Assembly (NCBI GenBank): GCA_019915135.1
Contig: JAHLMK010000010.1
Location: forward strand, 186,001-250,000
Source of the DNA: Strobilurus pachycystidiatus
Taxonomy: Eukaryota > Basidiomycota > Agaricomycetes > Agaricales > Physalacriaceae
Direction: 5' to 3'
DNA length: 64,000 nt
In this document: positions 28,246 through 64,000 of the stretch, in pieces
Position numbering within the stretch: the first letter of the stretch is position 1
Layout: each line of letters opens with the position of its first letter
Notes under the pieces: generated by a model
The model's input: the letters and a program-made list of their open reading frames with translations, nothing else
What the model was told of the DNA's origin: nothing
Database searches by the model: none
Made by a program: the position numbers and the translations under genes

Positions 28246-31200
28246 TTAAACCTTCTCTGCTTCGAACAGGATACACGTCCCGGCATCTTCGTGGCAGATC
28301 TGGACATTCGAGTACCCAGTCGCCGTAAGACGCTTCCTCCATTCGTTCTCGTCAATAGTGCAGTGCGTGCGGTCGTCGGTGTACCCGAACCATCCCTGGA
28401 AGGAACCCCAGATGAAGTCGTTCCAAATCGCTCCTGGTCGAGGAGGATTTGAAGTACGCGCGGTGCCGTCGGTGTCGACCACAAGAATGCGCCCGCCCGG
28501 CGCGAGGAGCGAGTGGAGATCAGTGAGGGTGGCGTCGAGATCGGGGACAGCGTGAATGACGTTCAATCCCGTAATCACGTCGTAGTGGCCCAGCTGGAGA
28601 CCCTGCTCGCTCGGCTTCTTTGAGAGGTCGTACATCTTCGCCACCATGTTCTTGTAGGAGAAGGATTCGGCCAAACTGCTGGCCAGCGAATAGGAGAGAT
28701 CCGTGACAGTGTATTCGACATCGGCGTTGGGCATGTCGCACAAAGCCTCGACGAGGAACTTCGTCAAACCACCGACACCTATGGGCACGGTTAGGAGAGT
28801 TAACTAGGTCAGAGAGATGAGTTGCATACCTGCGCCGACTTCCAGTACCCTGATAGGACGCTGCTTTCCGAAGTTGGGAGACGAGACGAGCGACTTGAAG
28901 GTCTTCGCAGCCTCTTGGTTCATACTGGTGAACACCTTGTTCTGGCGATAGAAGCCGTCAATCATGTCGTCAGAGTACAACGCCCCAACAGCTGCCTAGA
29001 TCACGGAGAGGGTTGAGGGCAGATCAAGCGACGCGAAGCATTCACATACCGCGGGCGACTCCATTATGGACGGGTGCACCTTCGAAATACGTTCGGTGGT
29101 CTCGAAGTACGTCGGGAACAACTTCTTGGAATGTTCGTACTCCTCGTCTGTCCACGTGCTGTGTGACTGAGTCCGGACGAACTCCTTGCACACCTCGAAC
29201 AAGCGCTGGCGACTGATCTGTGGAGGAGTTAGTGATCTGGTCGCATCCAATGAATAAGCTAAGAATATACCTCCGAGCCGACGAGAGGGTTCTGGCTGAC
29301 GGTGTCAGCCATGACCCGCAGCGCCATGGTATCCAGGATCTTGAACAAGGCCCTAAGATCCTTTATGGCGGGGTTGTGGATCATCGAGGCGAGCTGGTGG
29401 ACCGGCTGCGGGTCAACCCAGTCAAATTCGAGATTGCGCGAGAACTCCGGCTTCTCGAAGATGTCGAAGTGTCCCGAATCATAGTACTGCGTCTGGACTT
29501 CCCGCTCAGCACGCGAAATGCCCAAGTCGTTCCAGTCTGAGTTGATGAGGGCCCGGATCCCCCAGTTGGCAATCATGACGTTCATTGGGGTCTTGACCTT
29601 GGCAATCTCTTCGACCATTCGGCGTCTGGCAGTCTCCAGGCGGGTCTTTTCGTCAGAAGAAACCCATACATCCCATCCACCTCCAAAATCGACGACCTGC
29701 TTCAAATTCATCCTGGTTGTTTTCTGAATCCATTCCCACGACTCCATGGCGTTGGTTGCAGACGGAAGACCGTCCGAGGCCGCGACAAGATTCTCACCAT
29801 AGAGGCGCCGCGCCGGAGCAGTGTCTCGACGACAACATTCCGCGACTAAGGCCACGCTGGCCTTTCTACCATACGCAGACAGGTCTTCAAACGTCTTATG
29901 GTCTTCAGTGAAGCCATGTATAGCGGAGGTGAAGAATAGCGGGAAATGGTCGACGAAAGTGAGTTGCGCGATCTCGTCCTCGTTGGCCTCTAGTAATTGA
30001 GCGAGACGAAGGGTGACCATACTGGATGCGGAGAAGCCAGCAATACGGTAAGGACCCGCAGGTCGCGCTTCCTTGATCTTCTCAAAGTAGAATTGCGCCA
30101 GGGTGTCGACTGTGTCGAGAGGAGCCTCCGGTGTCGGCTGAATAGCCCAAAGCGGAGTCGAGAACTGCTCTTGGATAGCTCTGAAAGCAGCGGTATCGCC
30201 GGCACCTCCGTGAAGAATGATAAGTGGTGTTCCGCTTCCGATGTTGAATTTGAGAATCGTCTGGCCTGGTTGATGCATTGCGTCCCACGCGAACGGCTTT
30301 TCAGCCGTACTGGCCACTGTCTCCTCTACGGCTACGTGCTTTGTGGCCTGCATCTTCTCGACAAGGTCATCGAGACTAAGGTCGCCCAACAGCTGGATCT
30401 GGGTTATCGCAAGATATGGTTTCAAGGCCGTGGACATTCTGGCAGCAGAAAGGGAGTCGAGTCTGGAGGAAATGTTGAGCGCGCCGAATCGGCTGGAAGC
30501 GATGAGCGACTTACCCATACGACGTGAGGGGAACGTTTCTCTCAAACTCATCCTCGGAAGCATCAACAAACTTGAGCACAATCTCCTGGAGAACCTCGTA
30601 GGGGTCTTCAACCTCGAGTTCGTCTGTCGCGGCATCCAACTTCACCAGATGGTTATAAAGCACAGACTCGCTAACGGATTGGGAGATCGCATCCCAGTTC
30701 AGGTTGGGCACATAGATCGAGATACGCTCATTGTTCGCCATACGTAGCAGGCCGTCCTCGAGGCAAAGGCAGATTTCTGTAAGGTAAGGGTCAGATGGGG
30801 GCAACGGTAACCTAGGCGAAACCCATACCGTAGCTATTCATGGTAGAGGATTCCCACTGCTCCAGGTGGGAGTTGGTGGAAGTGAACAGGTCGAAGCCGA
30901 CGTTAGAGTCCGCAATACCAGGTGCTACAAAGGACCAAGCGTTGGGATAGCGAGCAGTCAGATACTCGATACCAGTATTGGCACTGAACACGGAATATCA
31001 GAGTCTGTAGTCAAAGTGCATATCAAGGCGTAGCTCACCTTGCATAGTTGGTCTGACCAGCGGCTCCGAAACCAGCCACGGAAGAGACAGCAAGCAAGAA
31101 ATCGAGTTTCTGGATATCAACGACCTTCTCGAAGGCAAAGTACGCGTCAGTCTTGGGTTTGAAGGGTATCGGGTAGGTGTCGGAATTCTGCTTCAGGAAC

Positions 31201-34200
31201 AGCCCGTCGGACATGACGGCGGCTGTGAACATGGCTCCAGCAAGGGGACGATCCAGCGAGCTGATCAGCTTCGAAAGAGATTCCACCGACGAGGCGTCAC
31301 ACGGCTCGAGCCTTAGCTCGAGGTCAGGAAGAGTCTTGAGATATTCGACGGCGCCGCGCAGGGATCTGTTCTTGGTACCAGCGAGTCGACTGACACCCGT
31401 TCGAGAAGTTAGGACAATATGCCTTGCGCCTTTCTGTGGTCATATCAATGACATCAGTGCCGGAAAGCTTTGAGGGGAAAGCACTCACTTGGTACATCCA
31501 GATGGCGACCTGGAGGCCCAAAGAACCAATTCCACCTAGAATGAGGTAGAACTTATCGTCTGCCAAAGCCAGGGATTGTGCTACGTCGAAATCGGATGGA
31601 AGCAGTTGGTCCGGCGTAAGCGAACCGCCCTCCACGCTGACCTCCGGGAGGGCACGCGTCAAATGCGCGTCGACGGTGGTGCCTATGAGCCAAGGGTTTT
31701 GTGCGACGGCGGCGAGAGCACCTTGTTCTGAATCTTCCCAATTGAAGACAGAAACACCATTGATTCGAGGAACAGTCCGAGCAGACGCGGCAGATAATCC
31801 ACCAATGATAGCGTCTCCTGGGGAAAGACGAGGAAGGACCAAGGGGAGTGATGGCGCAACCAAGACCGGTTTCACACCCAGGTATTCGAGAACTCGCGCG
31901 ACAGAGGAAGCAATCTTGCCGGTTTGAATGACGACGACTTGGATCTGCTGCAAGCTCTGCAGTGGCCTGGAGTCAAGGCGAAGACCAAGAGCCGCGAAAA
32001 CCAAGGAGAGGGCAACGTTCGCGGCGCTGTGCTCGTCAACCGTCTCGGAAACTTGAGCGAGCTGACCCTCGTGAACAAGGGTGAAATTGGACAGTGCAGA
32101 GGGTGCGACGGTCACCACGCGAGCTCCTACTTGCCACTGCGACGACCCGCTGCGCGCGACCGTCCCAACAATACCCCGCAGTCCGCCCTCTGCATCGGAC
32201 AGAGACGAGATCTTCACGAGCACCTGATGAGGACCGGGCAATGGAAGGGCTGGTTGGACAACAGTTTTAGCCTCCTCCACCACCCAGTACTTGCTATTGT
32301 CCAGGGTGTCAGGTGCACGCGGAGCGTAAGAGCGCAGACGGGGTACCAGCACCACGCCCGAGGCATCGAGTGCAATCTCGGATTCGAGGGAGGGAAGGGT
32401 AGACAGCTTTCGAATGGCGGCAATTCTGGACTCCGCTTCCCAGGCGGGATCGAAGAGCACTAAGCGAACGTCGACGGCCACAAGTTCTCGCATCAGCGAG
32501 CGAGCGAAACCAGTAGCAACAGCGCCGTCGAAGGTTCCCGTTGTAGATTCGATCCAGAGCTTGGTATTGCTGGCGCCCGATGACATGGATGCGAGCACAG
32601 TCTTTTGCACTTCCAACACGCGTGAATGCTCGAAGCTGAAGACTACAGGTTCTTCAACCTTGGCAGAGGATTCTGCGGAGGACGCAGAGACGGCGGACAG
32701 TGAGTGCTTTTGCGCCAGCAGCGTCAAAAACAAAGTATTCTCGACATCCTGTGCCCCGTCGACGACTTGGAACTTGGCTTTTTGTAGCTGGCCGCTCCAT
32801 TCCGACTGTGACAACCGATGGTGCTGTTTCCCGGAGCGTAACCCAGTCCAACGCCCTTGAGGGGAAAAGACTTGATCTATCCACTTTCCACCCGGGGCTT
32901 GGGCAGACCCATTGGCCTCAAGTGCAACGAGGAAACCACCAGGAACTAGGAGCCCGTTCAAGTACTCGAGCGATCGCTCCAGTTCGGCCGCAAAGCCAAG
33001 TGTGTGTGTCTCGATGATGACATCGTATGTGGAAGGCGAAAGACCGGTCTGCTTCGAGACGTTGTCGACGTTGAAGGACGCGAGGCGCAGATCAAGCGTA
33101 GCGTGCTCGTGACCACACGCGGTGTAATCCACTCTCAGAGAGGGGTAATCCGAGGCAAGAGCAGTAATCTGCTTGTACAAGGATGCGGTGGCTGGAAAAT
33201 AGGCGTCAGTACGTAGTGCCAGGACGAGGATACGTCCAGACTTACCATCACCAATGTCCAGGATACGCAAAACCTGCTTTCCGGATTTCGCAGCATGATC
33301 CAAGATCTGGCGGACCGCCGCCACCGAGGTGTCCAATGAAGCAGAGAACAGGCCCAGGAGCGAAGATGGTTTGAGCTATAAAAATGTCATCGCTTGTACC
33401 CACTGCAGCAGAATCTAGACTGAACTCACCTCGAGCTCATCGGCAGCGATAGACTGCACTATCTCCTCGAAGACTTTACGGTCCTCGCCCACGGTTCCAA
33501 CAGCCGAACCATTGGCATGGCCGTTGGCGTGGCCATTAGCGTGTCCGTTTGCAGGAGTCGCTACCTTGAGAAATGTGAGTAGGCTGATAAGGAGCAGCTA
33601 GACGACACACCTTCTCATCAGCAAGGGCCACTAAGGCATCCAGGAAGGCATAATCTTCATGTTGAGCTTTGGGCTCGGAAAGCTCTGCAGCCGGCAGGCC
33701 AAGAGGTTGATAAATGTACTCGTAGCTCGTGTCTGGCCGCGTGGGTACCGCGCCAGTCCAATGTTTCGACCTAGAGATTGGTGTGAGGAGAGGCAGCTTC
33801 GTTTCATTCATAGCAACTCACAAGACACAATCTATCAAGGTCACGAGTCGCTCTCCTCGCTCGTTGACAATGAAGGCGTCGCAGGCAATAGAGTCTGTAT
33901 GAAAATGAGCGAGATGAAGCGAAAGCATGTATTCATGGACGTACCGGGCGTCCAGTCATGGGGCACCACGTAGGAATAGAGTGTCTCAGGAACTGCTTCC
34001 TCAACTGCACGGTCGTACAGAGTTACACGACCGATGTGAGAAGGCAGGTAGAAGACGCTCTTGTCGGCATTGCCTGTAAAGACGGGATGTAGGAGGCCGT
34101 GAATGCAGGAGTCCAGGAGCGAAGGATGGAAGACGTAGTCGTAATGGCTAATCGTGTGTCAGACTCTGCTGTAGCTGAGTAGAGGAGGAAGCCTTACGCA

Positions 34201-37200
34201 GTAAGCTCTGGAGCATTTCCGCGAACCTGGTAGAGAATCTCGTGGTCGCCCTCATAACACGCCTCAATCCGACGATAAAGTGGACCGAACGCGGCAGTGT
34301 TGTTGAGGATAGCATAGAGGTCTGAAGGTCATAACATTGGTGAGTACAGGTCCAAAATAGACGTTGTATTGCTCACTCGAGATATCTGCAGGCGTAGTGC
34401 GCGCACGAATGGCAGCGAGGTCGATAGCCCCGGCATCCTTGTCCATGACCTCCGTCGTCATGAAGCCAGTGGCATGTAGACGAGGCTGGTGTACGATATC
34501 AGCCAGAAACTATCGAAAAAAAGTTGTCTTACGTTGCGACCACCCGACGAAGATACGATACTCCAAGCGTGACCGTCTGACTTGACGTTCACGTTCAAGA
34601 CCTTCTCCGGAAGCAGGGGTAGCAAGCTGCGAAGCTCGATGTTCCAGATAGTGCGTGCACCCTCCTCGAAAATCTACGACACATCCTTGAGTACCTATAG
34701 GTCAAGGTAGTGCATGTTGAAGCTCATACCATTTCGAAGAAACCAGTAGCGGGTAAAATAGGTTCACCTTTGATGACGTGCTCAGCAAGATCGGGATGCG
34801 TCAACGCATTCACCGCCAAGGTATCGTAGTTCAGAGGTCCTTTGCGAGTGCGCTTCATCTTGACCGCCAGTTCAGAGCTCTCAGAATAGAAAGGCATGGC
34901 TTTCGGGGCGAAAGGATACGCGGGAATGGGCTTCGATATCTCGAGAGAGTCGGTGGCGTTGACGGCATGGAAGTTGATAGTGTTGACGCCAAGAGTGGAC
35001 AAGTTTCCAACGGCTGAGAGCAAATCGAAGATTTCGTTGAACCCGGTGACGTTCTTGACACGACGCATGGGGCAGACAACCTTGTCAGGCTTAGCGCCCA
35101 TTCCCGAGATATAGGAAGAAAGCGCGGGATGTGGACCAATCTCGACGAAGATAGCCTCGGGCATCTCCTCGACGACGGCAGTCACGGTTTTCTCGAATTG
35201 AACAGGAACACCTAAAACAAAAAGTCGTCAGTATCGACTTCAGATCCTCGAATGAGATGACAAGCCACGTACGTCCATTGTTCCACATGTACTCAGGTGT
35301 GAATTCCGACTCCCATCGCGCGCCGGTCTGCGTAGAGTAAGTCGGGACAACAGGCACATGAGCGCCAGGGTAACGCGAGAAGGCAATCTCCATTTCCTCG
35401 ACATAGCGCTCTTTGCAAGGTTCCATTAGAGTGCAATGTCCCGGCACGCGAGCCTTGATCTTGCGGGCAAAGAAACCGCGCTCAGAAGCGATGGCGACGG
35501 CTTTATCGAGGAGAGCATGGGTACCAGAGATCGTGAAAGCCTCTGGGGCGTTGAAACAGCCGATTTCGAGGACGCCGCTGTCCGGCCCAGCCTCATCCAG
35601 TACCTCTTGAACGATTTCGCGAGCTACGGAGGGGGCACAGGATACGGCGGCCATGCCACCGGTTCCCTCAACAACCGACATCGCCTGTGAACGACGGATG
35701 GCGATCTCCATTGCCAGCTCCTGAGGAAGAGCTCCTGAAGTATAGGACATGGCGGCCTCACCAGCAGAATGGCCAAAGACCAAGTTGGGACGGATACCGA
35801 ACGCCGCCAAAAGGTCTACGAGCGCCATCTGGATCATTGCGATGCTGGGCACTGTGAGGCCTACTGGCCAGACATCAGGCAGAGCTACGCTGGAGCGCGT
35901 TTCTCCAAAGAAGCCAAGATCCTGTACGATGGACTTTCCGGTAAGCTCGACGTGAACCTTGTCCATCCGCAAGATACTGTCCCTGAAAGTAGGGTAGAAT
36001 TTGAAGAGTTGACGACCCACTGAGAGCAACAACGTGTGTCAGAAGTACTCAATGCAAAGAGTGGACCGTGACTTACTCTCGATATGCTGGGGCCCTTGTC
36101 CTGAGAAGACGAAGACAAGCTGTGGGGTGCCTCGCGGAACAAATCGCGGTGCGGGGAATACAAATGGACCATCAGAGGTGCTGATGGCAGCGGCGCGCCA
36201 TGTCAATTGCCTCGCGCGTCGTCCGTAGATGTTGGAGAGGATCGGAAGCTCATCTGGGATTTCCGAGGCGAGCTTGACAAGATCGGCTGCTATGGTTGTC
36301 GTACTGCGTGGGGAAAGACCCGCTGCCATAAGTAGCACAGGCATTCCGCTAGGAAGCGCAGAGGGTTTGGTCGCCTGCAAACGGAGCGTGTTAGCCTTGA
36401 TCGAGCAGGGTGAAGGAGAACAGAAATACCTTTGGAGGAGGGCTTTCAGCGATAACGTGTCCGTTCGCACCCAAAAGCCCAGAGGCATTACTAGAGAAGG
36501 AGATTTAGCCACGTACGAATGCAGCGAGGATATCACACACATTGAAACCAGCCTCTTTCCGGAAGGATTGCGAGTGTTGAATTCCTCAATCTGGGTGGGG
36601 GTACGCATGTTGTATTCCTCCCAGTTGATCGCAGGGTTCGGTTCTTTGAAATTGGCCTGAGGCGGGATGCGGTTGGTGTCGAACATCGAGATGACCTTGG
36701 AGAACGATGTGAGGAAGGCGGTGATTTCTGTGTGGCTATGATAAAGGGGGTTGAGTAAACGGTTCTCCTTTGATGCGCCAAAGTCTCACCCAACGTTCCC
36801 TTTAACGCTGCCAACCAAAAGTTCGGAATCCCTCTTGAAGTGTTTACCGACCCAGTTTGCCTCTACTGGATCCCCAACAGATGTGCCTGTGGCATGGCAC
36901 TCGACGAAGTCAACCTCGGATGGTGAACGACCGATCCCTTTGTACGCCGTAAGCATCGCTGCAGCCTGAGACTCGGCAATAGGCGTCTTCACTGGTCCTG
37001 CAGAACCTGTGAAACCAACAGATTAGTGTTGACTCGACAGGCATGACAATTACATACCCGTAGAATTTACAGCAGTGTTCAACACCTGTGTTAGAGTGAG
37101 AATTCTGAACCGGACGAAGTAAAACTGCTCCTTACGGTCGCGTAAATCTTATCGCCGTCACGGATAGCGTCCTCCAGCAACTTGACCACTAGTACCACAA

Positions 37201-38182
37201 CAGCCTCTCCCCGGCCGAATCTTCCAACAGATTAGTGCTAGTAGGAGATGCTAGAAGAACAATGCGTACCCGTCCGCAGATGAGTCAAAAGGTATACTCT
37301 TTCCACTAGGCGACAAAATAGACAATTGACTGTAGAAGATCCAATCGAGGAACCTACACGACACAACCTATAAGCCGCGGTCGTTTTGGGCGAAGGCGAG
37401 CTTACCTGTGATTGATCTGGCTTCCACCGATTACAGCGGCTTCACACTCACCAGCGCGCAACGATTGCACACCAAGGTGAAGGGCCATCAATGAGGAGCT
37501 ACACGCAGTGTCAACGGGAATGGATGGACCCAGTAGATCCAGCTGATAAGAGATTCGGTTGGCTACAGCGGCTGCACCTCCTCCGAAACCATCGCGAGGC
37601 TCGAACTCATCCTGTTGCAAACAGTCAGCAAAGTTCAGGATCGTGATGACGCGTACTTACCGCATCGGCTGCACTTAGGAGATCAAACGCAACTGCGGAA
37701 CTGAACGCTGCGACGTTCTGAGAACGAGAGTTGATTCCTGAGTCGAGCAATGCGAGGAAGGAGTGTTCCACAAGCTTCCTTGTGCCGGCACCCATGGTTA
37801 GAGCATCCTTGGATGAGATTCCGAATTCGAAATGGTCGAACAAATGGACGTCCTTGAGGAAGCACGCGTCTTTAGGCAAGACCTGACCCAGGTGGGATCC
37901 TTGCCATCTGAAGAGGAATTCAGTCTCGGAGAGCAATGGAGGAATGGGTGACGGACCCGTCGATGTTAAATCTGTCCTTCGGAATACGTTCGGCCGCGTC
38001 TTTACCTGAAAGTAAGAAGTCGAAGAAGGATTGGTGGTCGAAATTGGCGTCGGAGAGAGTGCCAGAGGGAAACTCGGCAGAGATTCCGACCTGCGCAAGT
38101 TGGTGAATACGTCGGAAGGTAGAGGGCCGATGTCATCACGTACCACAGCGACGGGCTTCAGAGTTTCGGCAGGAGGTAACAT
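28246..38182 (-). CDS. Reducing polyketide synthase with C-terminal hydrolase and methyltransferase (strobilurin-synthase-like)
   Basis: Minus-strand gene, ATG at 38182, TAA at 28246-28248, many ~53-nt introns, roughly 2,900 aa. Domains in order: KS (PVAVVGISAEFPSG; DTACSSSL at about 37,500; VECHATGT; KGNVGH), AT (VFSGQGPQH; GHSAGE at about 35,765), DH (HVIKGEPILP with the H-x3-G-x4-P signature; HPSLLDSCIHGL), a methyltransferase-like region with an eroded SAM loop (LDIGDATASL, about 33,240), an ER-like region without a GGVG loop, KR (ILGGIGSLGLQVA; SSVAGFGAAGQTNYARAN), ACP (LDSLSA, about 30,460), an alpha/beta hydrolase (GFSASS nucleophile, SGHFDIF His), and a C-terminal methyltransferase (VLEVGAGVGGLTKF). 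All KS, AT, DH, KR and ACP active residues are present. A His-Ala-Asn-Gly repeat linker precedes the inner methyltransferase. Expected product: an unsaturated, C-methylated, hydrolytically released polyketide acid. The strobilurin-type call is inference from architecture. Confidence 0.9.
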
Positions 38183-42079: not shown

Positions 42080-42856
42080 TCACAGGATCTTGTTTACAGA
42101 GTCGACACGCGCGGCCGCAATGCGCTGCCGCAAGTCAATCCAGAACGGGAACCCGAAAACGAGAGTTCCGAAGACATATGAAACCTGAGTGCGACAGTCA
42201 TCAAAGAGTGATTGAAAGCAAGAGACCCGACGTACGCCTGTGGTGAAGTTTCCAATGTGTTTGCGCGCGAGGGTGGCCGTGTACAGCGCTTGGGGGCCGT
42301 GTATCAAGCCGACGGCTGCCCACGCACGCGGGATGTTCGCGCCCGTCAAGTAAGGATTCGGGACGAACGTCAAGTAGAGCAGGCCGGCGACGGACCATAT
42401 CGTGGTCTTGTACGCAAGGCTGGGGAATATGAAGGTCGTGATCACGGGGGGCTTGGTCTACATGTATTTGGTTAGTCTTCATCTGCGCCCCAGGAAAGTA
42501 AACTTACAAGTCCAAGACCTTCCAGCGCACGCGTCTTCATTTTAAGGAGACGCGGCCTGACGTCCTCATAGCGAGTCAACGGAGGAGTGAGTTCAACCCG
42601 GACCAGCTTCTTGCTCCCGTCGCTGAGCGTGCAGATAAGCGTCAAGCTCTGTGTTGCAAGTCAGCACGACAAGGCGAAGAGTTCTGTGAACAAAGGTAAC
42701 CTTGGCGTCGAGAGCAGACACTTCGACACTAATGATAGGCTCTGCGACCTTGCCATACCATTTGGCGTACGCGACAAGGGTCTCCGGCTGGTTCGACAAC
42801 TCCTCCTTGAGAATTGTGGACTTGTCCGCGATGGGGTCTGCCACGATCGTGGCCAT
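42080..42856 (-). CDS. DUF2470 domain integral membrane protein
   Basis: Four exons (42856-42701, 42648-42508, 42457-42236, 42184-42080) sum to 208 codons, giving 207 aa. The N-terminal half, with DKSTILKEELSNQPETLVAY then AKWYGKVAEPI and SLTLICTLSDGS, matches the DUF2470 fold found next to haem-utilisation domains. The C-terminal half carries two to four hydrophobic segments (TTIWSVAGLLYLTFVPNPYL, SYVFGTLVFGFPFWIDL). Fungal proteins of this arrangement are small membrane proteins of unknown function, usually conserved across basidiomycetes, so it is more likely a housekeeping gene than a cluster gene. Splice sites are canonical and no defect was found. Confidence 0.8.
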
Positions 42857-48948: not shown

Positions 48949-49003
48949 CAGCACCGATTGAAATTCCTCCACCACCACCTTCTCCTCCTCCTCGCTTGAA
49001 GAC

Positions 49004-51637
49004 ATGGGAGCCTCGCACTCGACAGTCTCGGACCCCCATCGCTTCGCCACACCCATAACCGGCAGCGACGACGATGTCAGGTCGCTGCAGGCGCACCCAA
49101 CTAAAAGCTACGACTACATCGTTGTAGGAGGAGGTTGGTGCAATGTATAGCGACATCCACCGACCTCGTACTCACTGTCTCTTGTCTCACAGGAACCGCC
49201 GGCTGTGTTCTCGCGTCGCGCCTCTCTGAGGACCGTCGCGTCAATGTACTGCTCGTCGAGGCCGGGTACAGGTACGTGTCGTACTCCCCAGAAGGACTCG
49301 AATCTCATCGTCGCATTTCCCTCGCAGCAATCAGGGTGTTACAAACTCCATAATTCCTCTCGCATTTCCTATGTTGATGAAGAGCAAGTATGATTGGAAC
49401 TATGAGACGATGTAAGATGCCTTGGTGGTGTATGCCGTATTGATGGTCTGACCAATGCTTCGCCCAGTGGGATGGCTGGTATTGGCGGACGTACTAGTTA
49501 TTGGCCCCGTGGCCGACTTCTCGGTGGAACTAGGTGAGCCGCTCGCGACAGGCTACTCTGTCCTTCGGCCTCATGACATTGAACTATAGCTCTATCAATG
49601 GCTCGATGTACCACCGTTGCGCGCCCGAAGGTCTGTCTCTCTCCCAACGAGGAACTTCATACCGTGTCTGACATTAATGCGCCAGACTTCTCCGCGTGGG
49701 TCGAAGAGGGAGCGAAAGGATGGGACTATGAGAATATGAAGCCGTACGCCGACTTCTTCCCAACTCAGTCATCATCATGACCGTCTCCTCCAGTTATTTC
49801 CGTAAGGCCGAAGGGTACACTCCCCATCCCGACCATCCCAACATAGATCCCGCGCTTCATGGCACGGACGGCCCGGCGAAGGTTACCCATGGAATCATTG
49901 CTGTCAGCATCGGTTGTTTCGGAATTGATTAGCGTACTGACAGTTTCTGTCACAGCCCATCACAAAGGACATCCTCCAGTCTAGTATCAATGTCGGTATA
50001 CGTCAAGTACAGTGAGCATAGCTTGCCTGCAATGTGTGTCATAGTCTGATCTGGGTTTTCTTCCTAGCGACTTCAATACCGATGCTGGACCAACTGGAGT
50101 TGGTTTGTTTGCCCGCAATGTCTTCCCAAACGGAAGCCGTAAGTGCCTCGTCTTTCACTACTAAATCCGTCTGTTAATCACAGTTGTAGGCGTCTCTGCC
50201 GCTACTGGCTACCTTACGCCGTCCGTCCTGGCTCGTCCCAATCTGACTGTCGCGGTGGAGTGTCAAGCGGAGAAGATCGTGTTGAGCTCTGACGAAAAGG
50301 TTCCTCGTGCTAAAGGTCTCATCTTTTCCACCTCCCGAGACGGCCAACGTTTCTACGTTCCTGCTTCGAAGGAGCTCGTCCTCTCAAGCGGAGTTATCGG
50401 TACGCCGCAGGTCCTCATGTTGTCCGGAATTGGGCCTGCCGCCGAGCTGGCAAAACACAACATTCCCGTCGTGCGGGACCTTCCAGTTGGTGAATATCTC
50501 CAGGATGTGAGTTCTCCACTACATGTCCTCAATGAACGGTTGACTCATGAGTATATATAGCACTTCTCGCCTGGTCCCATGTTGATTCGGGCCAAGAAGG
50601 GCACCTGGGACTTCATCCTTCGACCTCTTGGAGGTCTTTGGGCCATGTTCAAATGGTTCTTCTTCGGCAAAGGTCCTCTTTCGTCTTTGAGTGTCCAGGT
50701 GGCTTGCTTCGTGCGTTCTGATGATAAGAAGTTCGTTCACCCACGTCTCTCCGAAATCTCCGACTTAATATGCTGCTTAGGCTGCCCATGCATGACGGAG
50801 CAAAGAAATACCAAGTCAAGGACTGCTGCTCAGGACCCACCGCGCCCGATATCGAACTTTTCTTCGCACCGTTTTTGGCACCTCCCCTCGGCCTGAAGTA
50901 CTGGCCTTTCCCCGGTCTTACCTCTGTAAGCGCGACTTGCTCGTTCACCAAGGCTTCTACTGATTATCATCTTCCCCAGGGTATGCTCTTGTTGAAGCCT
51001 GCAAGCTATGGAACTGTCAAACTCGCGAGCCGTAACGCCTGGGACTATCCCCTCATCGACCCGAAGTACGTCTCCAATCTTCATCAAGCCGCGATTTGTA
51101 TCCTTATATTCCATGCAGCTACCTCGCCCATGAAAGTGACATAGCCGTGTCCATCCTGGGCATGAGGCTGTTGGCCCGCATCGCGCGCACGAAGCCTTTC
51201 GCCGACTCCCTCGATCTTCCCGTGGACTCACACGACAAGACCTCCGTGTTCTGGCCAACAGATTGCAATCCCGACACCGTGAGTGCCGTGATCTCGTTAT
51301 CGCGAGGTGATAAGAGAACTGACACACACTCAAAGGTTTCCGACGAGGACCTCGAAGCATGGGCCAGGCTCCATGGACAGTCTACTGGACATCCCGTACG
51401 TGTTGTGTTCCATACCCAACCCGTTCAGCCTCTCACCCGCTGTTCCAGACGTCGAGTGCAAGAATGGGCGGCTCGCCAAGCACCAGTGTGGTAGACAGCA
51501 AACTCAAGGTTCACGGCGTGGAGGGCCTGAGAGTTTGTGATGCCAGTTGCTTCCCGACCCAGGTGTCTGGACATCCTGCTGCCGTCGTTGTTGCTGTGGC
51601 TGAGCGTGCAGCCGACCTCATCAAGGGCGTCGCATGA
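49004..51637 (+). CDS. GMC family FAD oxidoreductase
   Basis: Many short exons. The protein starts [11 protein letters not shown], then [20 protein letters not shown] (ADP-binding GxGxxG loop), [27 protein letters not shown] (GMC signature 1) and [20 protein letters not shown] (signature 2). The C-terminal catalytic region has [12 protein letters not shown] and [19 protein letters not shown], supplying the two active-site His positions. GMC enzymes oxidise primary or secondary alcohols to aldehydes or ketones with O2 or another acceptor. No secretion signal is present; instead MGASHS fits an N-myristoylation site, so it is probably intracellular, consistent with a biosynthetic role rather than lignocellulose breakdown. 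Its cluster function (alcohol to aldehyde oxidation of an intermediate) is inferred. Confidence 0.86.
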
Positions 51638-51933: not shown

Positions 51934-53938
51934 ATGGGTTCTGACTTGACCCAGCTTCAGCTACGACCACCACAGCGATCGCGATGGCGGGCACTCGTCT
52001 TCGCTGGCCTTTTGTCGGCCTCCCTCGCTTTTTTCACTCATACTCAGCTCAGTCCCCCACCTCAGCGGTGTCGGCCTAATCTGCCCAATATTTTCAATAA
52101 GCACCCGCTTCAAGACAACGAGCCAGAGGTCCGCGACGCCTTGCTCGCCGTCGACTCCTTCGTCCGCCAATCCTTCTACGATAATCGGGACATTGATGGC
52201 CTCGTTGCCGCCGTCGTCACCGCAAATGGCGCAATATACGAGACGGCACTGGGACCACTGAAGGCAAACGAGACGCGCCCAGAGGACCGCGGCGCTGTGG
52301 ACAGGCATAGCATCTTCCGGCTGGCCTCTGGCTCGAAGCTGTTTGCGATGCTTGAGATTCTCATTCTGCGCGAAAGAGGCGCGCTTCAGCTGTACGTTAT
52401 CTCCGACAGTTTCACCAAGAAAATTACTCTGATCTTCTTCCAGCGATGACCCCATCGCCAAATATCTTCCGCAGTCTACCTACAAGCAGGGAGGATGGGC
52501 GGACGAGGACGACATCGATGAAGGGCCTATCACTGTTCGCCACCTTGCGTCGCATATGTCTGGAATGACACGCGAATATCCACGCGGCAACATGGACCAT
52601 TGGCCTCATTCGCTCGAAGGCATCGGTCCGCCTCCAATGAATGGTGCACCGTTTCCCGCTACGCTCGAAGAGACAGTGCTTGGCATCTCGCACTACCCGC
52701 TCAACTTGCCGACAAGCACATACCCCGTCTATTCCAATGCTGGAATGGCTCTTCTGGGTCAGATTGCAGTCGTTGCCAATGCTGCTGCCGAGCGAAGTCG
52801 GGGGGTTGATCAAGCCATGATTCCTAACGGGTGGAGAGAACTGGCACAACGCGACATTTTCGAACCACTAGGCTTGAATGGGAGCTACTTCATTCCCAAT
52901 GCGCGAACTAGAGCCCACGTTGCCGTGGCTAGCAAGTACAGTGACGAAGTGGTATGCTCAAACTATCATCATCCGACTCAACATACTTACTTATGTTCTT
53001 CGAGGACATCGATTTTTTGGACGTGATGGCTTGCTCGGGCGGTCAAATGAGCTCGTTGTCTGGTATGCCGTCATCTTCCCCCATTTTCCCTCAGCTAAAT
53101 TATCGGTGCAAGACTACATCAAGCTGATGCAGACATTTCTCGATCCCACTTTACCACAGAGTCTCCTTCCAGCTCACATCATGCGGGAATGGATGTCGCC
53201 AGTTTTTGGTTTCAATGACGACGAGACGGAGGTGGGCTTGCTCTGGGAGATAGTGAAGATCAAAGACTCGCACTCTCGTCCTCTACGGATTTATCAGAAG
53301 AGTGAGTTGCTCCATATCTTTCTTTCCTTGTCAAATGTTTAATCAGTCCCCAGATGGTGTCCTGGGAGCATCGCGAAGCGTCTTCGCTATCCATCGAGAA
53401 ATGTCCTTCGGTGTCGCCTTGCTCAACACCGGTACGGCGACCATCACAGGCGATATTGCTCTAGAGGTTTTCCGCATCATGCAACCTTACCTCGACAAGC
53501 TTCAAGAGCGAAAAGTCGCGGAGCGCTTCGCTGGACAGTGGCGCCTTCCTCTCCAATCAGATGCAACCTTAAATTCTATGGTGGATATCGTCGTCTCCGA
53601 TGGGTCCTTGTGGATTACCCGTCTCGTACTCGACGGAACGGATGTATTGAGGCTGACCGAGGAGATGCCTGCGTTTGGCGGCGCGCATTCTCGCCGCGTG
53701 GCACTCTGGTCTATGCGGCGAGACGAATTTCGGTTAGCTTCCTATCCACTGTTCTGCTGTCGAGTGTGCAACTCATTCTCACAGGATGGTACTCGGCGCT
53801 GGGGCTGCGACTTCGTGTATGAGTTCGTGGACGGCGATGGATAGTGGATTCTCGAGAGGGTATCCAATGGACCTGGTGTACTTCAAGAAAGGCAAGTTAC
53901 ATGTACCGTCTGCCGGTGTTGTACTATTTCGGGTCTAA
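51934..53938 (+). CDS. Beta-lactamase-like serine hydrolase, membrane-anchored
   Basis: About 560 aa over several exons. A basic head precedes one hydrophobic segment (ALVFAGLLSASLAFF, about residues 20-35), a signal anchor or uncleaved signal peptide. The class C beta-lactamase/transesterase fold follows: FRLASGSKLF carries the S-x-x-K nucleophile pair, VYSNAGMALLG has the Tyr-Ser-Asn motif, and VRHLASHMSGM is the conserved helix. The C-terminal domain is a small beta-rich region ending SAGVVLFRV at 53936-53938 (TAA). Fungal members include esterases and acyl transferases of secondary metabolism (the LovD type) as well as uncharacterised secreted peptidase-like proteins. It might trim or transfer an acyl group on the cluster product, or be unrelated; sequence alone does not decide. 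No lesion was seen. Confidence 0.82.
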
Positions 53939-54343: not shown

Positions 54344-55716
54344 TTACAGTGGCAACTCCGGGCTGTCAATCAGCATGGCCCCCATCCTGGCATTTCTGTC
54401 ACCAGGAATCTCACTTTCCTCTGCGAGCTTGCGCACAGCCGCAATTTCCTCCTCGGTAAGTTTGATCGAGGAAGCGCCCACATTCTCTTCCAGGTACTAT
54501 ACACAGGCATGAGCATCCTCGAGGTTGATTCGGAGGAGAGGAAGGGAGACCAACCTTGACCTTCTTGGTTCCAGGAATGATGATAAAGTCGGGCCCTTGA
54601 GCCAAAATCCACGCCAGCGTAACCTGTCCCGGCGTCGCATTGTGCTTTTCGCCAATCTTCTTCAGTTCAGAAACGACGTCGAGAATCTTGGGGAAGTTCG
54701 TCGCGGAGAACCTGCGGATTCAATCTTAGAACAAGGCCGGTTACTTACAAAGAGCGATTACTTGGGAATAGTGCGCCTAAAATCATTGGGTTCGAAGTCG
54801 TCCGGGGATTTCTATAGAAGGGCTTGAATGGTGATCCCTGATCCTGAGTAATGTACGTACGTATTGGCCAGTGAGCAAACCGCGTCCGAGCGGGGAGTAG
54901 GTGATAATCGTGACTCCCAGCTCCCTCGCGGTCTCGAGAAGGGCAAGCTTCGGATCCTCGAGGTCAAGGACGAAAGGGGAGTATTCCATCTGGAGAGCAG
55001 CGATGGGGTGGACTGCGTGAGCGCGTCGGAGAGTCTTGGCAGAGCACTCCGAAAGGCCCAAGTACTTGACTTTGCCCTCTCTAATGCATTGGTAAATAAG
55101 AGGACCATTTAGTAACAGAGTTTACGCACTTGACAAGCTCAGCCATTGCGCCGACAGTTATCTATTCACCGGTTTCAATAAGCTGCGAATATACAGAGAT
55201 AGACCATACCTCAATCGGTGTCTTTGGATCAACCCTGGATGTAACATGTTACATATTGCGCGTAATGTGGGAGAGAACGATGATTGCATACCTGTGTTGG
55301 TAAAACAGATCGATGCAATCCACACCAAGTCTTTCGAGCGACGTGGCGCATTGCTCCTTGACGAAGTCCGGGTCCCCGCGCACTCCCTGGGGAGTGATTC
55401 CAAACTTGGTGGCCACAAAGATGTCGTCTCGCTTCCCGGTGCGCTTCAGCCACTTGCCGATCAGCTCTTCCGAGTCTCCGTAGAGGTGCGCGGAGTCCCA
55501 GAACGTGCATCCCGCCGCATGGGCCGCGTCCAAGACCTGGACTTGTTCACATACCGCAATTGCAAGCGCTGAAACGCGATGACTGACCTTGAATCGCTCG
55601 TCGTCGGACTCGACGACTCCGTAGAAACCAGAGGGGCCCAGCTTGGCAATTCCCATCGTCCCGAATCCGATCTCAGAAACGAGAGACTGGCCGATTTTTC
55701 TGGTAGGGAGAGGCAT
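54344..55716 (-). CDS. Aldo-keto reductase
   Basis: Minus strand, ATG at 55716, TAA at 54344-54346, about 340 aa over several exons. It opens [20 protein letters not shown]. The catalytic tetrad of the (beta/alpha)8 barrel is visible: Asp and Tyr in [20 protein letters not shown], Lys in IFVATKFG and His in DLFYQHR. NADPH contacts are in the [14 protein letters not shown] and [17 protein letters not shown] segments, the latter being the phosphate-binding loop. It resembles the AKR13-like/yakC group. It reduces aldehydes or ketones to alcohols in the cytosol and, with the adjacent GMC oxidase, could interconvert an intermediate's alcohol and aldehyde. From memory, aldo-keto reductases also occur in described strobilurin clusters; direct participation is unproven. 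Confidence 0.87.
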
Positions 55717-56805: not shown

Positions 56806-58648
56806 ATGGCCATTGATCGAAAGATTCGCATCGCAGTTGTGTGCGTACAGTCTATTCAGCCACTAGTTGCTTTTCTGATCCGAGTCTAATCCAGTGGTGG
56901 TGGTCCGGGAGGTGTCATCGCGGCTCTCGCCCTGTCCAAGTCCGAAAACTTCGAAATCGACCTCTATGAGGCGGCCACTGCGTTCGGCGACATTGGCCTC
57001 TCCCTCGGGATGCCCTGGCGTCCATGGAGAATCCTCAGATTGCTTGGATTGCAGGACTACCTGGCAGCACTCTTACCTCCCGATCAAATTCCGAAAGAGG
57101 ACGTGACTGGTGCGTCGATATCTCTTCACGGACATGTGATGTCTTGACGACAGTTCTCAAGTGCCGACTATTCACTATCGCAAGTCCGATCAAGCTGTGG
57201 GCGAAGACATTTTCACGTGCACAAGTCTTTGTGGGTCTCCATCTCGCCTTCATGCATAGGACCGACTCCTCAGACTGTCCCTCTTACAGCTGGTTACACG
57301 AGGTTCCGCCGTTCACATTTCCACGCAGCGCTTCTGCCACATCTTCCCTCAAACTGCAAGACATACACGTCCAAGCGTTTAGTCAGCTATACCGAGCCAT
57401 CCAACGCGTCGGATCCCGTCGTGCTAACGTTCGCGGATGGAACGACCGCCGAGTGCGATGTTCTTGTTGGAGCCGATGGGATCAAGTCCGCTACACGAGC
57501 CAGCATGTATAGCCAGGCTGCTGACGAGGCAGAGAAAGCTGGTCGGTCTGATGAGGCGACCAACCTGCGTTACAAAATCAAGGCCAAGTTCAGTGGCGTG
57601 GAGGTTTTCCGTTCAGTCATCACCGCCGAGCAGTTGCGTGCAGCCGCGCCCGACCATCACGCTTTCCGCTGTCCTACTCAGGTCGGTCTTTCATCGCACT
57701 CAACTCGTTTATTGGCCGCTGAAATACACCATAGTTCCTAGGGAAGGAGAAGGTGAGAAGGCCTTAGTTTGCGTATATTGCTCCCTCATACTGACCTGTC
57801 CAATGCAGCACATCATGACCTACCCTATCCAATCAGAGAATAGCCAGTTCCTCAACTGTGCGCTGTACATCTGCGATTATAGTCGCGAGGGCGAAGAGTA
57901 CCCGGAACCATGGGTTCAAGACGTCCCCGCTGAGAATCTCAGGTCGTCATTGCCGGGTTGGGAACCAGACGCACAGGCTGCACTCTCGGTGAGACTATAA
58001 CTCCCTAGACCGCGCCGTTGTAGACTCAGTCTTCATGTCCAGTGCATGGGTGAGGTCGTGAGCCGATGGGCGATTTGCACCCTCAGCCCCTTGCCCTTCT
58101 TCCAGAAGTCCCGAGTCGTTTTGCTCGGAGATTCAGTATGTTTCCTTCTATCTTTTCTGAAGATATTTCTTTGCTGACATCTTGCTATAGGCGGTTCGTG
58201 TGCCTACACCTCTCTCTGCCTTTGATCTGATTACCGTCAATCTTTAGCACGCTATGACGAACTTCCAAGGTGCTGGTTGCGGCCAAGCGATCGAGGTACA
58301 GTAACCTTTTGCCTTTTCTTTGTGTCTACCTTTCTCTTACGCCTTTCTTTTTTTTTTTTGTAGGATGCCTACATTCTGTCTGAGATCCTCACACACCCTT
58401 CCGTTACCCGGGAGAATGTGCAGAAAGCGCTCGAGATCTACTCCGAGGTCCGCGTCCCGATGTCTACGCACGTCTTGGAGAGTTCGCGGCGCACAGGGAT
58501 GGACTGCGCTCTCCACGACGAGGCTGCGGCCGCGGACTTGGAGTCGCTCGGCAAGCGTATGCAGGAGGAGATGAACTGGGCTTGGGACTGGGATCCCGAG
58601 GATGAGAAGAAGAAGGCTTTGGATCTCGTTGCAAAACGTCTTGTCTGA
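56806..58648 (+). CDS. FAD-dependent monooxygenase, salicylate-hydroxylase-like (candidate Str9-type rearrangement oxygenase)
   Basis: Exons 56806-56840, 56895-57109, 57162-57230, 57290-57681, 57735-57752, 57809-57988, 58043-58135, 58191-58193, 58248 onward. The FAD loop IAVVGGGPGGVIAALALS, the DG motif VLVGADGIKSATR and the GD motif VVLLGDSAHAMTNFQGAGCG are all intact, in the order of class A flavoprotein monooxygenases, with the DSAHAM motif completed by a 3-nt exon. An HYRKSDQ segment emerges only with the micro-exon structure. No membrane anchor or signal peptide. The family inserts one oxygen from O2 using NAD(P)H, often on aromatics. In strobilurin biosynthesis, as I recall, an FAD oxygenase (Str9) epoxidises and rearranges prestrobilurin to build the beta-methoxyacrylate skeleton; this gene is the natural candidate here. 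That role is inference. Confidence 0.87.
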
Positions 58649-58999: not shown

Positions 59000-60380
59000 A
59001 TGATCGTGATCTCTCGTCTTCTGTCTCCTCCAACCAACATCGTCAAACGTGCTCGGCCGACGTTCGTCTTAGGCCGTCTATCTACTCAACAGACCGAAGT
59101 GAATGTCCCTTCCAGTGCTCCAGCCAGGCGCCATCAGTCCTCGTTCGCAGCGTCGAACGATGGTCTACAAATCATTTCCCTCAAACAGAACTACCCTTTT
59201 CCTTGGCTTCGCGATGCATGTCGATGCCCGCATTGCGTCCACCCATCTACCCGGCAGAAATTATTCCGCACGTCTGATATTCCAGTGGACGTCCAGCCAG
59301 CTCTAAACGGCGTCGAGGAGGTCGGCGAGGGTCTCAAGATCCGCTGGTCGAACGGTCATGAATCACTCTATGACTGGGAATTTCTTCAAGAACATTCTAC
59401 CTCTATTTCTCGCACAGAAGCGAATAAAGATCTTTCGAGGGTTGGCTGGACACGTACCAGCATCGCGAAGGAGCAAGACCTCTATCTCGACTATGAGATA
59501 CTCAAGACGAAAGAAGGGCTCAGGAAGGCTATCGATCATACATGCCGGTTTGGCTTGTTGTTCATTGTCAGTTCACTTTGTTTCCATTGAGTATTAGAAC
59601 CATGATCTCAGTGTATACTATAGCGAAATGTTCCAAACGAAGAAACTTCGACGGCCTCTTGTTCGTTGCGCACCCTTGCCCAATATTTTGGTGACATTCG
59701 TAAAACGTTCTATGGCGAGCTATGGGATGTCAAGAATATCTCTAACAGTCGCAACATCGCGTACACAAATCTTGACCTTGGACTTCACATGGACCTCTTG
59801 TTCGTCGACTGCCTTTCTCTTCCAACTGAGCTGATCATCTTCCTCTGACAGGTACTTCCAGCATCCACCCCAGTTCCAAATCCTCCACTGCCTTCGTAAC
59901 CGGGTCCTGGGCGGTTCATCCATATTTTCTGATGCTCTTCATGCAGCGGAGACCCTTCAAATCCAAGACCCTGCGGCATACAATGTCTTGAGGAACGTCC
60001 AAGTTCCATTCTCCTATGTAAACGATGGGCACCACCTCTACCATATCCACCCCACGATCGAGGTCTCTGCCACAGGCAACGTAAACCAGATAAATTATTC
60101 TCCTCCATTCCAAGCGCCACTTCTCCTTGATACACCTCCTGCTTTCTTCAGTGCCCTTCACCAATTCTCGAACTTGGTCAATTCTGAAGAGAACGCGTTC
60201 GAATATACCCTCAAGGAGGGTGACGCGGTGTTGTTCGATAACCGAAGGGTTTTACACGCAAGAAGGGCATTCGAGGAGATACCAGGTCAGGAAATTTCCG
60301 AGGGGGACGCGAATAGGTGGCTGAAGGGCTGCTACATCGAGGGAGATGCTATGTGGGACCGAGGAAGAATGCTGCGATAG
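59000..60380 (+). CDS. Gamma-butyrobetaine/TauD-type Fe(II)/2-oxoglutarate dioxygenase
   Basis: Three main exons. After a basic, hydroxylated leader (MIVISRLLSPPTNIVKRARP) that looks like a mitochondrial targeting peptide, the zinc-binding N-domain appears: FPWLRDACRCPHCVHPSTRQ. The TauD fold has GLHMDLLY (H-x-D iron ligands) and RRVLHARRAF (distal His and nearby Arg), ending ANRWLKGCYIEGD. This is the architecture of gamma-butyrobetaine hydroxylase and trimethyllysine dioxygenase. An in-frame ATG at 58865 would add 45 residues; 59000 is preferred because it puts the targeting sequence at the N-terminus. It could be a primary carnitine-pathway gene that happens to lie here, or a recruited cluster oxygenase: described strobilurin clusters include, as I recall, a non-haem iron oxygenase gene. 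The family is sure, the role open. Confidence 0.86.
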
Positions 60381-62394: not shown

Positions 62395-64000
62395 CTACGG
62401 TCGGTCACGCAAGAGCCGCCGGAGCACCTTCCCTGATGCAGTTTTCGGGATCTCGTCGCAGAAATCAATCCCGGCTCCAAGATGCTTATAGGAGACCTTA
62501 TGCTCGGCGACGTGCTGAGAACATCGTCGGTCAGGATTGAGTAGAAAGAGATCAATCAACGAAGACTCGCCTGGATGAGCGCGACCTTGACTTTCGCCAG
62601 TTCATTTTCATCAGTTCCAATGCGACTGCGCGCGCCTTGGGTAAGAACGACGAAAGCCTTGGGCAACTGTCCACTAAATTCGTCTGCCACCGGAACGACG
62701 CAGCAATCTGCGACGTCGGCGTGCTTGAACAAGTGGCTTTCAAGTTCCTCAGGATTGACTCGGAACCCCTTCACCTTCATGAAATCCTGCGAATCTTCGT
62801 ATCAAACGCGTCAAATGGTTGTACGGCATAAGGCAGTACCTTCAGACGCTGAATGTGGAACATTTCGCCCGCTTCGTTTAGGTATACCTCGTCTCCAGTG
62901 CGTAACCATCTAAACGCCTAGGTTCAATGTGCGGATCGAATTGGAAACGCTATATTGACTCACCCATCAACAAAAGTATCGGACCAGCTACAGAGTCCCA
63001 GGCGTCAGCAAAGCGCAGAGAAAGGAGCAGAGGAGCGAGCATGCACTGACGATTCTAAGTTCTGGCTATATCCCGTAGCCAAAGAGGGAGATTTGATCCA
63101 GAGCTCGCCCTTCTCCCCCCGCTCAGCGGGGGATCCGTCCGGGTGAATCACCTTCCAGGAAACACCGGGAAGAATCTTGCCTACACTGGCTGAGGTTGCA
63201 CCGGAGGCGACGTTTCCCGGCGTAGCAACTTGGACAGACAGAGATGGTGCCGTAAGGGCCCCAGCTTCTGTCATACCTAGCAGGCCGTGTGAGACATTTC
63301 CTCAGACTTTGCATGCCAGTACGTACCGTATATCTGTCCGACAACAGATTGAGGAACAATTCGGGCGAGACGCTCGACAAGGTCATTGTTCAACGGGGCA
63401 CCCGCTATCGATACCAGTCGTACACTTCGGAGTGCCTCGACGTCATCACCCAGTTTCTACACAGGCTGATTAGTATGGACATCTCTCACGTCAATTGTTA
63501 CATACCTTCGTGAACAGGACCACCATCGGTGGCACCAATCTGTACAGAGTAGATGAACAATCTTGAAGAACGCCGAGAATAGAGCGCACTTACAGAAGAT
63601 GCGTAATTTGGTACTTCTCAATAGTCTTGACACAGGAGCCCAAGCCGAACTTCGGTGCAACGACAACAGTCATCTGTACGGCCAGCAGAGATTAGATCTA
63701 TCGGGGGTTTATGTGCTGACTGCTCACCCCCGAGAAAAGAGCATGATGTAGCTGTCTACTAGTCAGCCACGCCGTGTATGACCGAGCCAGACGAGCTCAC
63801 GTTGATAAGTAGGCCCAAGATGTCTGTAATCCAAAGGATTCAGTCCTAGAGGCGACAAGGTTTCAGAACTGGGACTCACGGAAGAATGGCAATACTGGAT
63901 ATTCATGAGTGACACATATAAACTCATACACAAGTTGTGGGGTTTACCTGCGAGAGAGACATCTCCTGGCTTATACCGCCTCCGCGAGATGGGTATTGTC
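62395..64000 (-). CDS. 4-coumarate-CoA-ligase-like acyl-CoA ligase, partial (5' end off window)
   Basis: Only the C-terminal two thirds are in the window; TAG at 62395-62397. From the right edge: RRYKPGDVSLA (the segment before the LPFFH-type motif), RSVRLVSIAGAPLNNDLV (A4-like), VVGQIYGMTEAGALT (A5), GEKGELWIKSPSLATGYSQN, MKVKGFRVNPEELESHLF (A8 hinge, K-V-K-G-F) and IPKTASGKVLRRLLRD (A10, with the catalytic Lys). This is an ANL-superfamily ligase of the 4-coumarate/aryl acid group, which activates a carboxylic acid with ATP and transfers it to CoA. In a strobilurin-type pathway it would make the aryl-CoA starter (benzoyl- or cinnamoyl-CoA) for the PKS. Splice sites are canonical in the part seen; the start and cofactor-binding P-loop lie outside. 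Confidence 0.86.

Follow-up and report, generated by a model that had tools for sequence, protein, structure and literature searches.

The window analysed here, a 64,000-nucleotide stretch of contig JAHLMK010000010.1, very probably (at roughly 93%) carries a Strobilurus gene cluster for strobilurin biosynthesis, orthologous to the characterised str and sl clusters of S. tenacellus and S. (Bolinea) lutea (Nofiani et al. 2018, KY070339; PMC6158276). The natural fungicide strobilurin gave rise to a major class of crop sprays. The cluster is near-complete within the window, with most of the published set present; given the genus, its occurrence is no surprise. From the SDR to the PAL gene it spans about 45.5 kb, compared with ca. 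47 kb for the S. tenacellus and S. lutea cluster, and all enzymes named in the consulted part of the published cluster text had counterparts at the locus (PMC6158276). Gene models were built with our own scripts on genomic sequence, and domain calls were based on a Pfam profile search of the modelled proteins. All gene classes proposed in an initial annotation of the window were recovered in this way, most of them by Pfam and the second methyltransferase by alignment with the first. The annotation's assignment to strobilurin was likewise upheld by a PKS with C-terminal hydrolase and methyltransferase, by the clade of the FAD monooxygenase and by a PAL gene beside the CoA ligase. Its starting point at position 28246 coincides with the 3' end of the PKS gene, but leaves the SDR gene to the left unlisted, although it belongs to the published set.

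The GC content of the window was 51.9%, and the assembly comprised 51.78 Mb in 61 contigs. The accessible part of PMC8401616 gives 51.82 Mb, 71 contigs and 51.75% GC for S. pachycystidiatus, and 42.4-51.8 Mb and 51.5-52.1% GC for four Strobilurus genomes, with one strobilurin cluster per species according to antiSMASH counts given without gene maps. The window shares its genus with these clusters, as judged from cytochrome b.

The highly reducing PKS is encoded at 28246..38182 on the reverse strand, with the domain order KS-AT-DH-(C-MeT)-(ER)-KR-ACP-TE-C-MeT. The model guided by the homologous PKS P0125 had 29 exons, 28 out of 28 introns with GT-AG borders, 2824 amino acids (307.0 kDa) and no inner stop; spliced alignment gave 29 exons with P0121 as a guide as well, and 30 with P0127. 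Pfam recognised ketoacyl-synt, Acyl_transf_1, PS-DH, KR, Thioesterase and a C-terminal Methyltransf_23/12, whereas the internal methyltransferase, the enoylreductase and the ACP had no Pfam match and were assigned by position, motif and ortholog alignment. The internal C-MeT motif was degraded (DIGDATASL), and motif inspection of the ER found no recognisable nucleotide-binding motif. Both domains are therefore read from their sequence as probably inactive. The exons encoding the C-terminal C-methyltransferase (28246..29217, reverse strand; PF13489 at residues 2636-2807) contained the SAM motif EVGAGVGG, identical in the six strobilurin-type PKSs of the alignment shown. The published description of StPKS1 reports the same states for all three motifs. 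The domain order is also that of the S. tenacellus PKS, and stpks1 has 28 introns, as here, for a product of 306 kDa versus 307.0 kDa in our model (PMC6158276).

The basidiomycete polyene synthases LpaA and PPS1 share the KS-AT-DH-MT-ER0-KR-ACP-TE architecture with the window PKS. LpaA, however, is described in the consulted part of PMC7473843 as having a canonical internal methyltransferase and ending at the TE, whereas in the window PKS the internal motif is degraded and a further methyltransferase follows at the C-terminus. Over its full length, the window PKS (as a 2806-residue model) was 74.2-83.0% identical to nine strobilurin-type PKSs from Mucidula, Hymenopellis, Mycena and Favolaschia (P0121-P0129), and 62.7-73.6% identical to twelve nearer paralogues, whereas the comparison with nine distant basidiomycete PKSs gave only 29.1-38.9%. 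We therefore rejected a polyene synthase identity, and the outcome that the initial annotation had named as fatal to its reading, a PKS of that type or a PKS and FAD monooxygenase outside the strobilurin clades, did not materialise. The strobilurin-type relatives include the PKSs of Mucidula mucida and Hymenopellis radicata, both reported as strobilurin or oudemansin producers (PMC7828609, consulted in part).

A single exon (29271..30462, reverse strand) encodes a piece of 397 residues with the last part of the ACP and the entire thioesterase. In the published description, this part of the PKS is a partial hydrolase followed by 300 residues without known fold. Our model argues for another reading, which we regard as likely: both parts would belong to a single, complete FAS-type thioesterase whose lid is long and helical and whose Ser-Asp-His triad is intact; prestrobilurin A would then be released by ordinary hydrolysis. 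The AlphaFold2 model (mean pLDDT 80.3, with 204 of 397 residues at 90 or above) showed a complete alpha/beta-hydrolase fold. Human FASN thioesterase provided the 8 best of 1137 Foldseek matches (E 9.2e-12 to 2.3e-10), with an rmsd of 9.8-13.0 Å and TM scores of 0.53-0.56 by target and 0.37-0.41 by query. Ser144, Asp171 and His331 of the piece occupied the canonical triad positions, just past strands 138-143, 164-170 and 322-330, respectively. In an alignment of the window sequence with 35 proteins picked from the best 120 listed, the nucleophile was Ser in 33 rows and Cys in 3, while Asp and His were present in 36 out of 36. In the PKS model these residues are 2283, 2310 and 2470. In PMC6158276 the hydrolase serine is S2240; the two proteins, or their numberings, must hence differ upstream of this residue. 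If this reading is true, no unknown PKS domain would be left to account for the Z-olefin, which would then have to arise through KR/DH programming (or through the lid or the C-terminal MeT). It would correct the published description and make both the release step and the question of the E,Z,E-triene accessible to point mutants.

For the enzymatic steps and the product of the cluster, we infer by homology the pathway of S. tenacellus, which was reconstructed experimentally (PMC6158276). PAL would convert phenylalanine to cinnamate, the Fe/2OG oxygenase would lead on to benzoate, and the CoA ligase would supply benzoyl-CoA. The PKS would extend benzoyl-CoA three times, its C-terminal C-MeT adding the methyl group, and its thioesterase would release prestrobilurin A. 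Epoxidation and rearrangement of prestrobilurin by the FAD monooxygenase may then yield the beta-methoxyacrylate skeleton, to be completed to strobilurin A by the two methyltransferases. The ratio of strobilurin A to bolineol is predicted to depend on the GMC oxidase and the SDR.

The genes for the benzoyl-CoA supply were all present. A TauD/gamma-butyrobetaine hydroxylase-like non-haem iron (Fe/2OG) oxygenase, candidate for str8, lies at 59000..60380 on the forward strand (PF02668, TauD, E 1.9e-44; PF06155, GBBH-like_N, E 1.6e-14). The CoA ligase, candidate for str10, occupies 62395..64000 on the reverse strand (PF00501, AMP-binding, E 1.9e-50; PF13193, AMP-binding_C, E 2e-9), with its stop codon position read by eye and its 5' part extending beyond the window to about 65130. 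It is adjoined by the PAL gene, candidate for str11, with which the published set reaches past the right edge of the window. The PAL model covers 65953-69097 in window coordinates on the forward strand, with an uncertain 5' end and PF00221 matches at C10:252769-254314; its ASG motif was intact and stood directly before an intron. The class A FAD monooxygenase, candidate for str9, lies at 56806..58648 on the forward strand (443 amino acids; PF01494, FAD_binding_3, E 3.9e-17); its 10 exons were checked and contained no inner stop.

The two SAM-dependent methyltransferases, candidates for str2 and str3, are paralogues. MT_a (43839..45059, forward strand) matched PF13489 (Methyltransf_23, E 4.7e-12), and MT_b (47168..48377, reverse strand), which had no Pfam match in its rough model, aligned with MT_a over most of its length. 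These are followed by a GMC oxidoreductase, candidate for str4 (49004..51637, forward strand; PF00732, GMC_oxred_N, E 1.2e-40; PF05199, GMC_oxred_C, E 3.7e-8), a single beta-lactamase-like hydrolase, candidate for str5/str6 or slr5 (51984..53844, forward strand; PF00144, E 5.4e-30), and an aldo-keto reductase where str7 would sit (54344..55716, reverse strand; PF00248, Aldo_ket_red, E 2.2e-59). To the left of the PKS gene, that is downstream, an SDR gene (23618..24961, forward strand; PF00106, E 1.2e-21) is a candidate counterpart of stl2, which lies downstream of the PKS gene in the published cluster as well (PMC6158276). Two further genes may correspond to the enigmatic l1 and r1. The first is a weak model for a small membrane-protein-like product (25927..26560, forward strand; DUF6534 at 22.5 bits, below the cut-off of 28.2). 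The second encodes a DUF2470/TMEM254-like protein of 207 residues adjoining the PKS (42080..42856, reverse strand; PF10615, E 1.9e-8; PF14934, E 4.6e-5).

Gene order was compared through the numbering of the named published genes, with which it agreed except that the FAD monooxygenase precedes the Fe/2OG oxygenase, whereas str8 (the NHI oxygenase) comes before str9 in the published str/sl numbering. This apparent reversal, together with the aldo-keto reductase and the single hydrolase gene, might hint at a variant pathway to a new congener, but we consider this improbable since GMC oxidase, hydrolase and SDR all occur in the published cluster. The GMC and beta-lactamase-like genes, taken by the initial annotation as possible marks of a variant, are not such marks because the published cluster has str4 and str5/str6; in S. 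lutea the hydrolases are even fused to one gene, slr5, like the single gene of the window (PMC6158276). Reading of the predicted flanking translations recognised no halogenase or prenyltransferase, and the consulted part of PMC6158276 mentions neither in the published cluster. Nothing against or beyond a strobilurin cluster was found in the accessible parts of PMC6085771, PMC7725599 and PMC11909596.

Located 235 bp upstream of MT_a is a foldback element of which near-identical copies occur elsewhere. Its presence could be taken to suggest a cluster that is broken or silent in this strain, an explanation to which we give little credit in view of PKS and FAD models without inner stop and of intact active-site motifs at the PKS and PAL sites tested.

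The kinship of the strobilurin cluster to those of producer fungi was further followed in trees of 32 PKS and 26 FAD monooxygenase sequences, that is the window protein plus 31 and 25 proteins picked from the best 120 listed matches. The PKS homologs were searched with an early rough model, and the PKS tree was built from the 2806-residue model. Among the matches listed for the FAD monooxygenase, nine named proteins were 60-71% and one metagenome protein 68% identical to it, and the next one 43%. It fell into one clade with proteins of producer genera (support 1.000), which served as a proxy for Str9. Neither Stpks1 nor Str9 (KY070339) was named among the best 120 PKS and FAD matches listed. 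In the PKS tree, the strobilurin-type PKSs were not cleanly split from near paralogues: P0139 and P0142, annotated without C-terminal MeT, joined Hymenopellis (0.986), and P0128 joined P0137 and P0138 (1.000). Support for the placement of the window was weak, at 0.062 and 0.680 in the tree of PKSs and 0.646 in that of FAD monooxygenases. Strobilurus belongs to the Physalacriaceae, and neither tree united the window with other members of this family. For three of the nine strobilurin-type PKSs, the PKS and FAD matches of one species carried an identical length for the longest contig (Mucidula 839475, Favolaschia 3412355 and M. sanguinolenta 3563225); for the other six, this comparison did not indicate linkage. 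No other close copy of the FAD monooxygenase was seen in the genome, in which two further ketosynthase loci were found (C2 and C27, as gene models only).

Mitochondrial cytochrome b places the host almost certainly in Strobilurus. The query, lacking six inner and the last nine residues and with exon ends set by similarity, was identical to S. tenacellus CYB_STRTC in 366 of 374 compared residues (8 differ; 96% by BLASTP), and the next named taxon among the matches listed reached 85%. One alternative is a paralogous cluster whose PKS belongs to this family but makes another, non-strobilurin polyketide. It is conceivable since further PKSs of 62.7-73.6% identity occur in Favolaschia claudopus and several Mycena, some annotated without C-terminal methyltransferase and some falling among the strobilurin-type PKSs in the tree. 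It is very unlikely given this host and, beside the PKS, the PAL, the Fe/2OG oxygenase, the CoA ligase, two methyltransferases and an FAD monooxygenase of which no second close copy was seen in the genome.

As a strobilurin cluster that is apparently intact, on a long contig with its flanks and with cytochrome b from the same assembly, the locus can serve as a comparison reference for Strobilurus, Mucidula, Hymenopellis, Mycena and Favolaschia. As to cytochrome b itself, a G143A exchange as self-resistance was dismissed, since position 143 holds Gly; the exon matches place an intron immediately behind this residue. D261 was discarded as a special residue, being Asp in 106 of 120 listed cytochrome b proteins. 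A literature search with the cytochrome b residue names returned no paper. Among the 120 listed, only S. tenacellus shared Q254, a residue that Kraiczy, in 1996, reportedly related to natural resistance.

We put at about 0.93 the probability that a Strobilurus species carries at this locus a genuine strobilurin cluster, nearly complete and to all appearances intact. The kind and genus of cluster are already known, and this one has probably been counted in print; one strobilurin cluster each is given for four Strobilurus species in the accessible part of PMC8401616.

Genes were modelled with a purpose-built gene finder trained on the window and further stretches of the genome (assembly of 51.78 Mb in 61 contigs), and domains were assigned by Pfam scan. 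The gene set read in the initial annotation was recovered in this way: a PKS (28246-38182, minus strand), two paralogous methyltransferases, MT_a (43839-45059, plus) and MT_b (47168-48377, minus), a GMC oxidoreductase (49004-51637, plus), a beta-lactamase-like hydrolase (51984-53844, plus), an aldo-keto reductase (54344-55716, minus), a FAD monooxygenase (56806-58648, plus), a TauD/GBBH-like Fe/2OG oxygenase (59000-60380, plus) and, extending past the window end, a CoA ligase of the AMP-binding type (about 62395-65130, minus). The same approach placed an SDR (23618-24961, plus) and a DUF2470/TMEM254-like protein (42080-42856, minus), and a small DUF6534-like gene (25927-26560, plus) had a sub-threshold Pfam match. 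PF00221 matched at three places in the genome, on contigs C2, C17 and C10. The match on C10, the contig of which the window takes up 186001-250000, is a PAL (modelled at 65953-69097 in window coordinates, 5' end uncertain) that lies beyond the window beside the CoA ligase; its ASG motif is intact and directly followed by an intron. Reading the flanking predicted genes by eye revealed no pathway-gene look-alike except one MFS-transporter-like protein. Its gene (8636-10562, assigned by eye from the translation) lies left of the cluster; between it and the SDR stand two gene predictions of different kinds plus a single tiny model.

The accessible text of PMC6158276 names the methyltransferases str2 and str3, the GMC oxidase str4, the hydrolases str5/str6 (in S. 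lutea one fused gene, slr5), the NHI oxygenase str8, the FAD oxygenase str9, the CoA ligase str10, the PAL str11, the SDR stl2 and the enigmatic r1 and l1. For every gene named there, the window plus the PAL beyond its edge holds a candidate. The window has a single hydrolase gene, as in S. lutea, and an aldo-keto reductase at the place str7 would occupy. The FAD gene precedes the Fe/2OG gene, whereas the published numbering runs str8 then str9, which may be a real swap or a numbering effect.

Spliced alignment of the PKS to three orthologs resolved 29 exons when guided by either of two of them and 30 when guided by the remaining one. The model guided by P0125, one of the nine closest strobilurin-type homologs, has 28 introns, all GT-AG, and encodes 2824 aa (307.0 kDa) with zero inner stops; stpks1 is described with 28 introns and 306 kDa (PMC6158276, accessible text). 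Pfam identified KS, AT, DH, KR, thioesterase and C-terminal methyltransferase domains, the last two bearing out the C-terminal hydrolase and methyltransferase noticed earlier, while motifs and alignment served to locate the internal C-MeT, the ER and the ACP. In the alignment, the KS, AT, DH, KR and ACP motifs were intact. The internal C-MeT motif was degraded, likewise in six strobilurin-type PKSs aligned alongside, and EVGAGTG was kept in the Collybiopsis and Gloeophyllum PKSs; the C-terminal C-MeT motif was intact and identical in the six. These states equal those of StPKS1 as far as described in PMC6158276, where, however, the hydrolase serine is residue 2240 and not 2283 as in our model. 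Two more ketosynthase loci, for which gene models were built, occur on contigs C2 (about 399433-400318) and C27 (about 170577-170881).

The published description has a partial hydrolase plus 300 residues of unknown kind (PMC6158276), and phmmer gave the same picture: in the 397-residue translation of PKS exon 29271-30462, residues 64-163 aligned with human FASN, and no further. The structure predicted for this piece from a 36-sequence alignment (35 rows picked from the best 120 matches) had a mean pLDDT of 80.3, with at least 90 for 204 of 397 residues, and formed one alpha/beta hydrolase over residues about 66-345, in which helices 174-287 may be read as a lid. In this model, Ser144 (residue 2283 of the PKS) follows strand 138-143, Asp171 strand 164-170 and His331 strand 322-330. 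Of these 36 rows, all have the Asp and the His; as nucleophile, 33 have Ser and 3 have Cys. In FASN thioesterase, the Asp comes directly after the strand next after the nucleophile. The top eight of 1137 Foldseek matches were all human FASN thioesterase; the superpositions on it were loose (rmsd 9.8-13.0 Å, target-normalised TM 0.53-0.56), which would be attributable to the putative lid. We thus consider it likely, from the predicted structure, that the strobilurin PKS carries one complete thioesterase with a Ser-Asp-His triad. The accessible parts of the few papers found on prestrobilurin and on strobilurin with thioesterase did not show this reading for the strobilurin PKS. For the basidiomycete polyene synthases LpaA and PPS1 a C-terminal TE is annotated, with canonical residues for LpaA (PMC7473843, accessible part).

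Homologs of the PKS were searched with residues 2240-2889 of an early rough model (314 proteins at E <0.001, best 120 examined). Among these 120, nine proteins were 76-82% identical across the entire query region, from Mycena galopus, M. crocata, M. polygramma, M. sanguinolenta (two), M. olivaceomarginata, Hymenopellis radicata, Favolaschia claudopus and Mucidula mucida. M. mucida and H. radicata are reported strobilurin/oudemansin producers (PMC7828609), and Strobilurus, Mycena and Oudemansiella are listed in PMC6378405, both as far as accessible. Over the full length, identity was 74.2-83.0% to the nine, 62.7-73.6% to twelve nearer paralogues, 29.1-38.9% to nine distant basidiomycete PKSs and 27.0% to one ascomycete PKS. 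Favolaschia claudopus and several Mycena have additional paralogues of the strobilurin-type PKS (within P0130-P0147), some of them annotated without the C-terminal methyltransferase, which may be real loss or gene-model truncation.

Among the best 120 of 438 homologs of the FAD monooxygenase, ten were 60-71% identical, nine of them named and one an unnamed metagenome protein, and the next stood at 43%; in the tree, the 60-71% relatives formed a clade with support 1.000. In the PKS tree, the nine closest PKSs formed no clean clade: the homologs P0139 and P0142, annotated without a C-terminal MeT, joined Hymenopellis, and P0128, one of the nine, joined the homologs P0137 and P0138. Neither tree fixed the position of the window protein inside its group. 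A paralogous cluster of the same PKS family making a different, non-strobilurin polyketide is very improbable in our view; the mixed PKS tree, the serine mismatch (2240/2283) and the loose superposition made us slightly more inclined to it, and slightly less confident in the strobilurin cluster and the complete thioesterase. For three of the nine PKSs, the same longest-contig value was reported as for the same-species FAD match, which suggests that the two genes are linked there; the other six gave no agreement. The genome itself has one close copy of the FAD protein, the next match being 46% over a fragment.

As to the host, cytochrome b exons were found on contig C33 (103162-121255), which is probably mitochondrial (28.8% GC over the 28 kb examined); the exons are many, one ending directly after codon 143. 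Of 374 residues compared between the joined protein and CYB_STRTC of S. tenacellus, 366 were identical (96% by BLASTP); Flammulina came next at 85%. The GC content of the window (51.9%) lies within the range of four Strobilurus genomes (51.5-52.1%). The cytochrome b has F129, G137 and G143, and its residues I134 and Q254 recur in S. tenacellus but in none of the other 119 proteins among the best 120 matches.

A foldback element (43168-43604; arms of 174 nt, 77% complementary, spaced by 89 nt) lies 235 bp upstream of MT_a. A genome DNA search with 43180-43560 gave 32 matches, each copy counted in both orientations. The family probably moved recently, judging from the sequence identity of its best other copies: 98%, 93% and, for a partial one, 99%.
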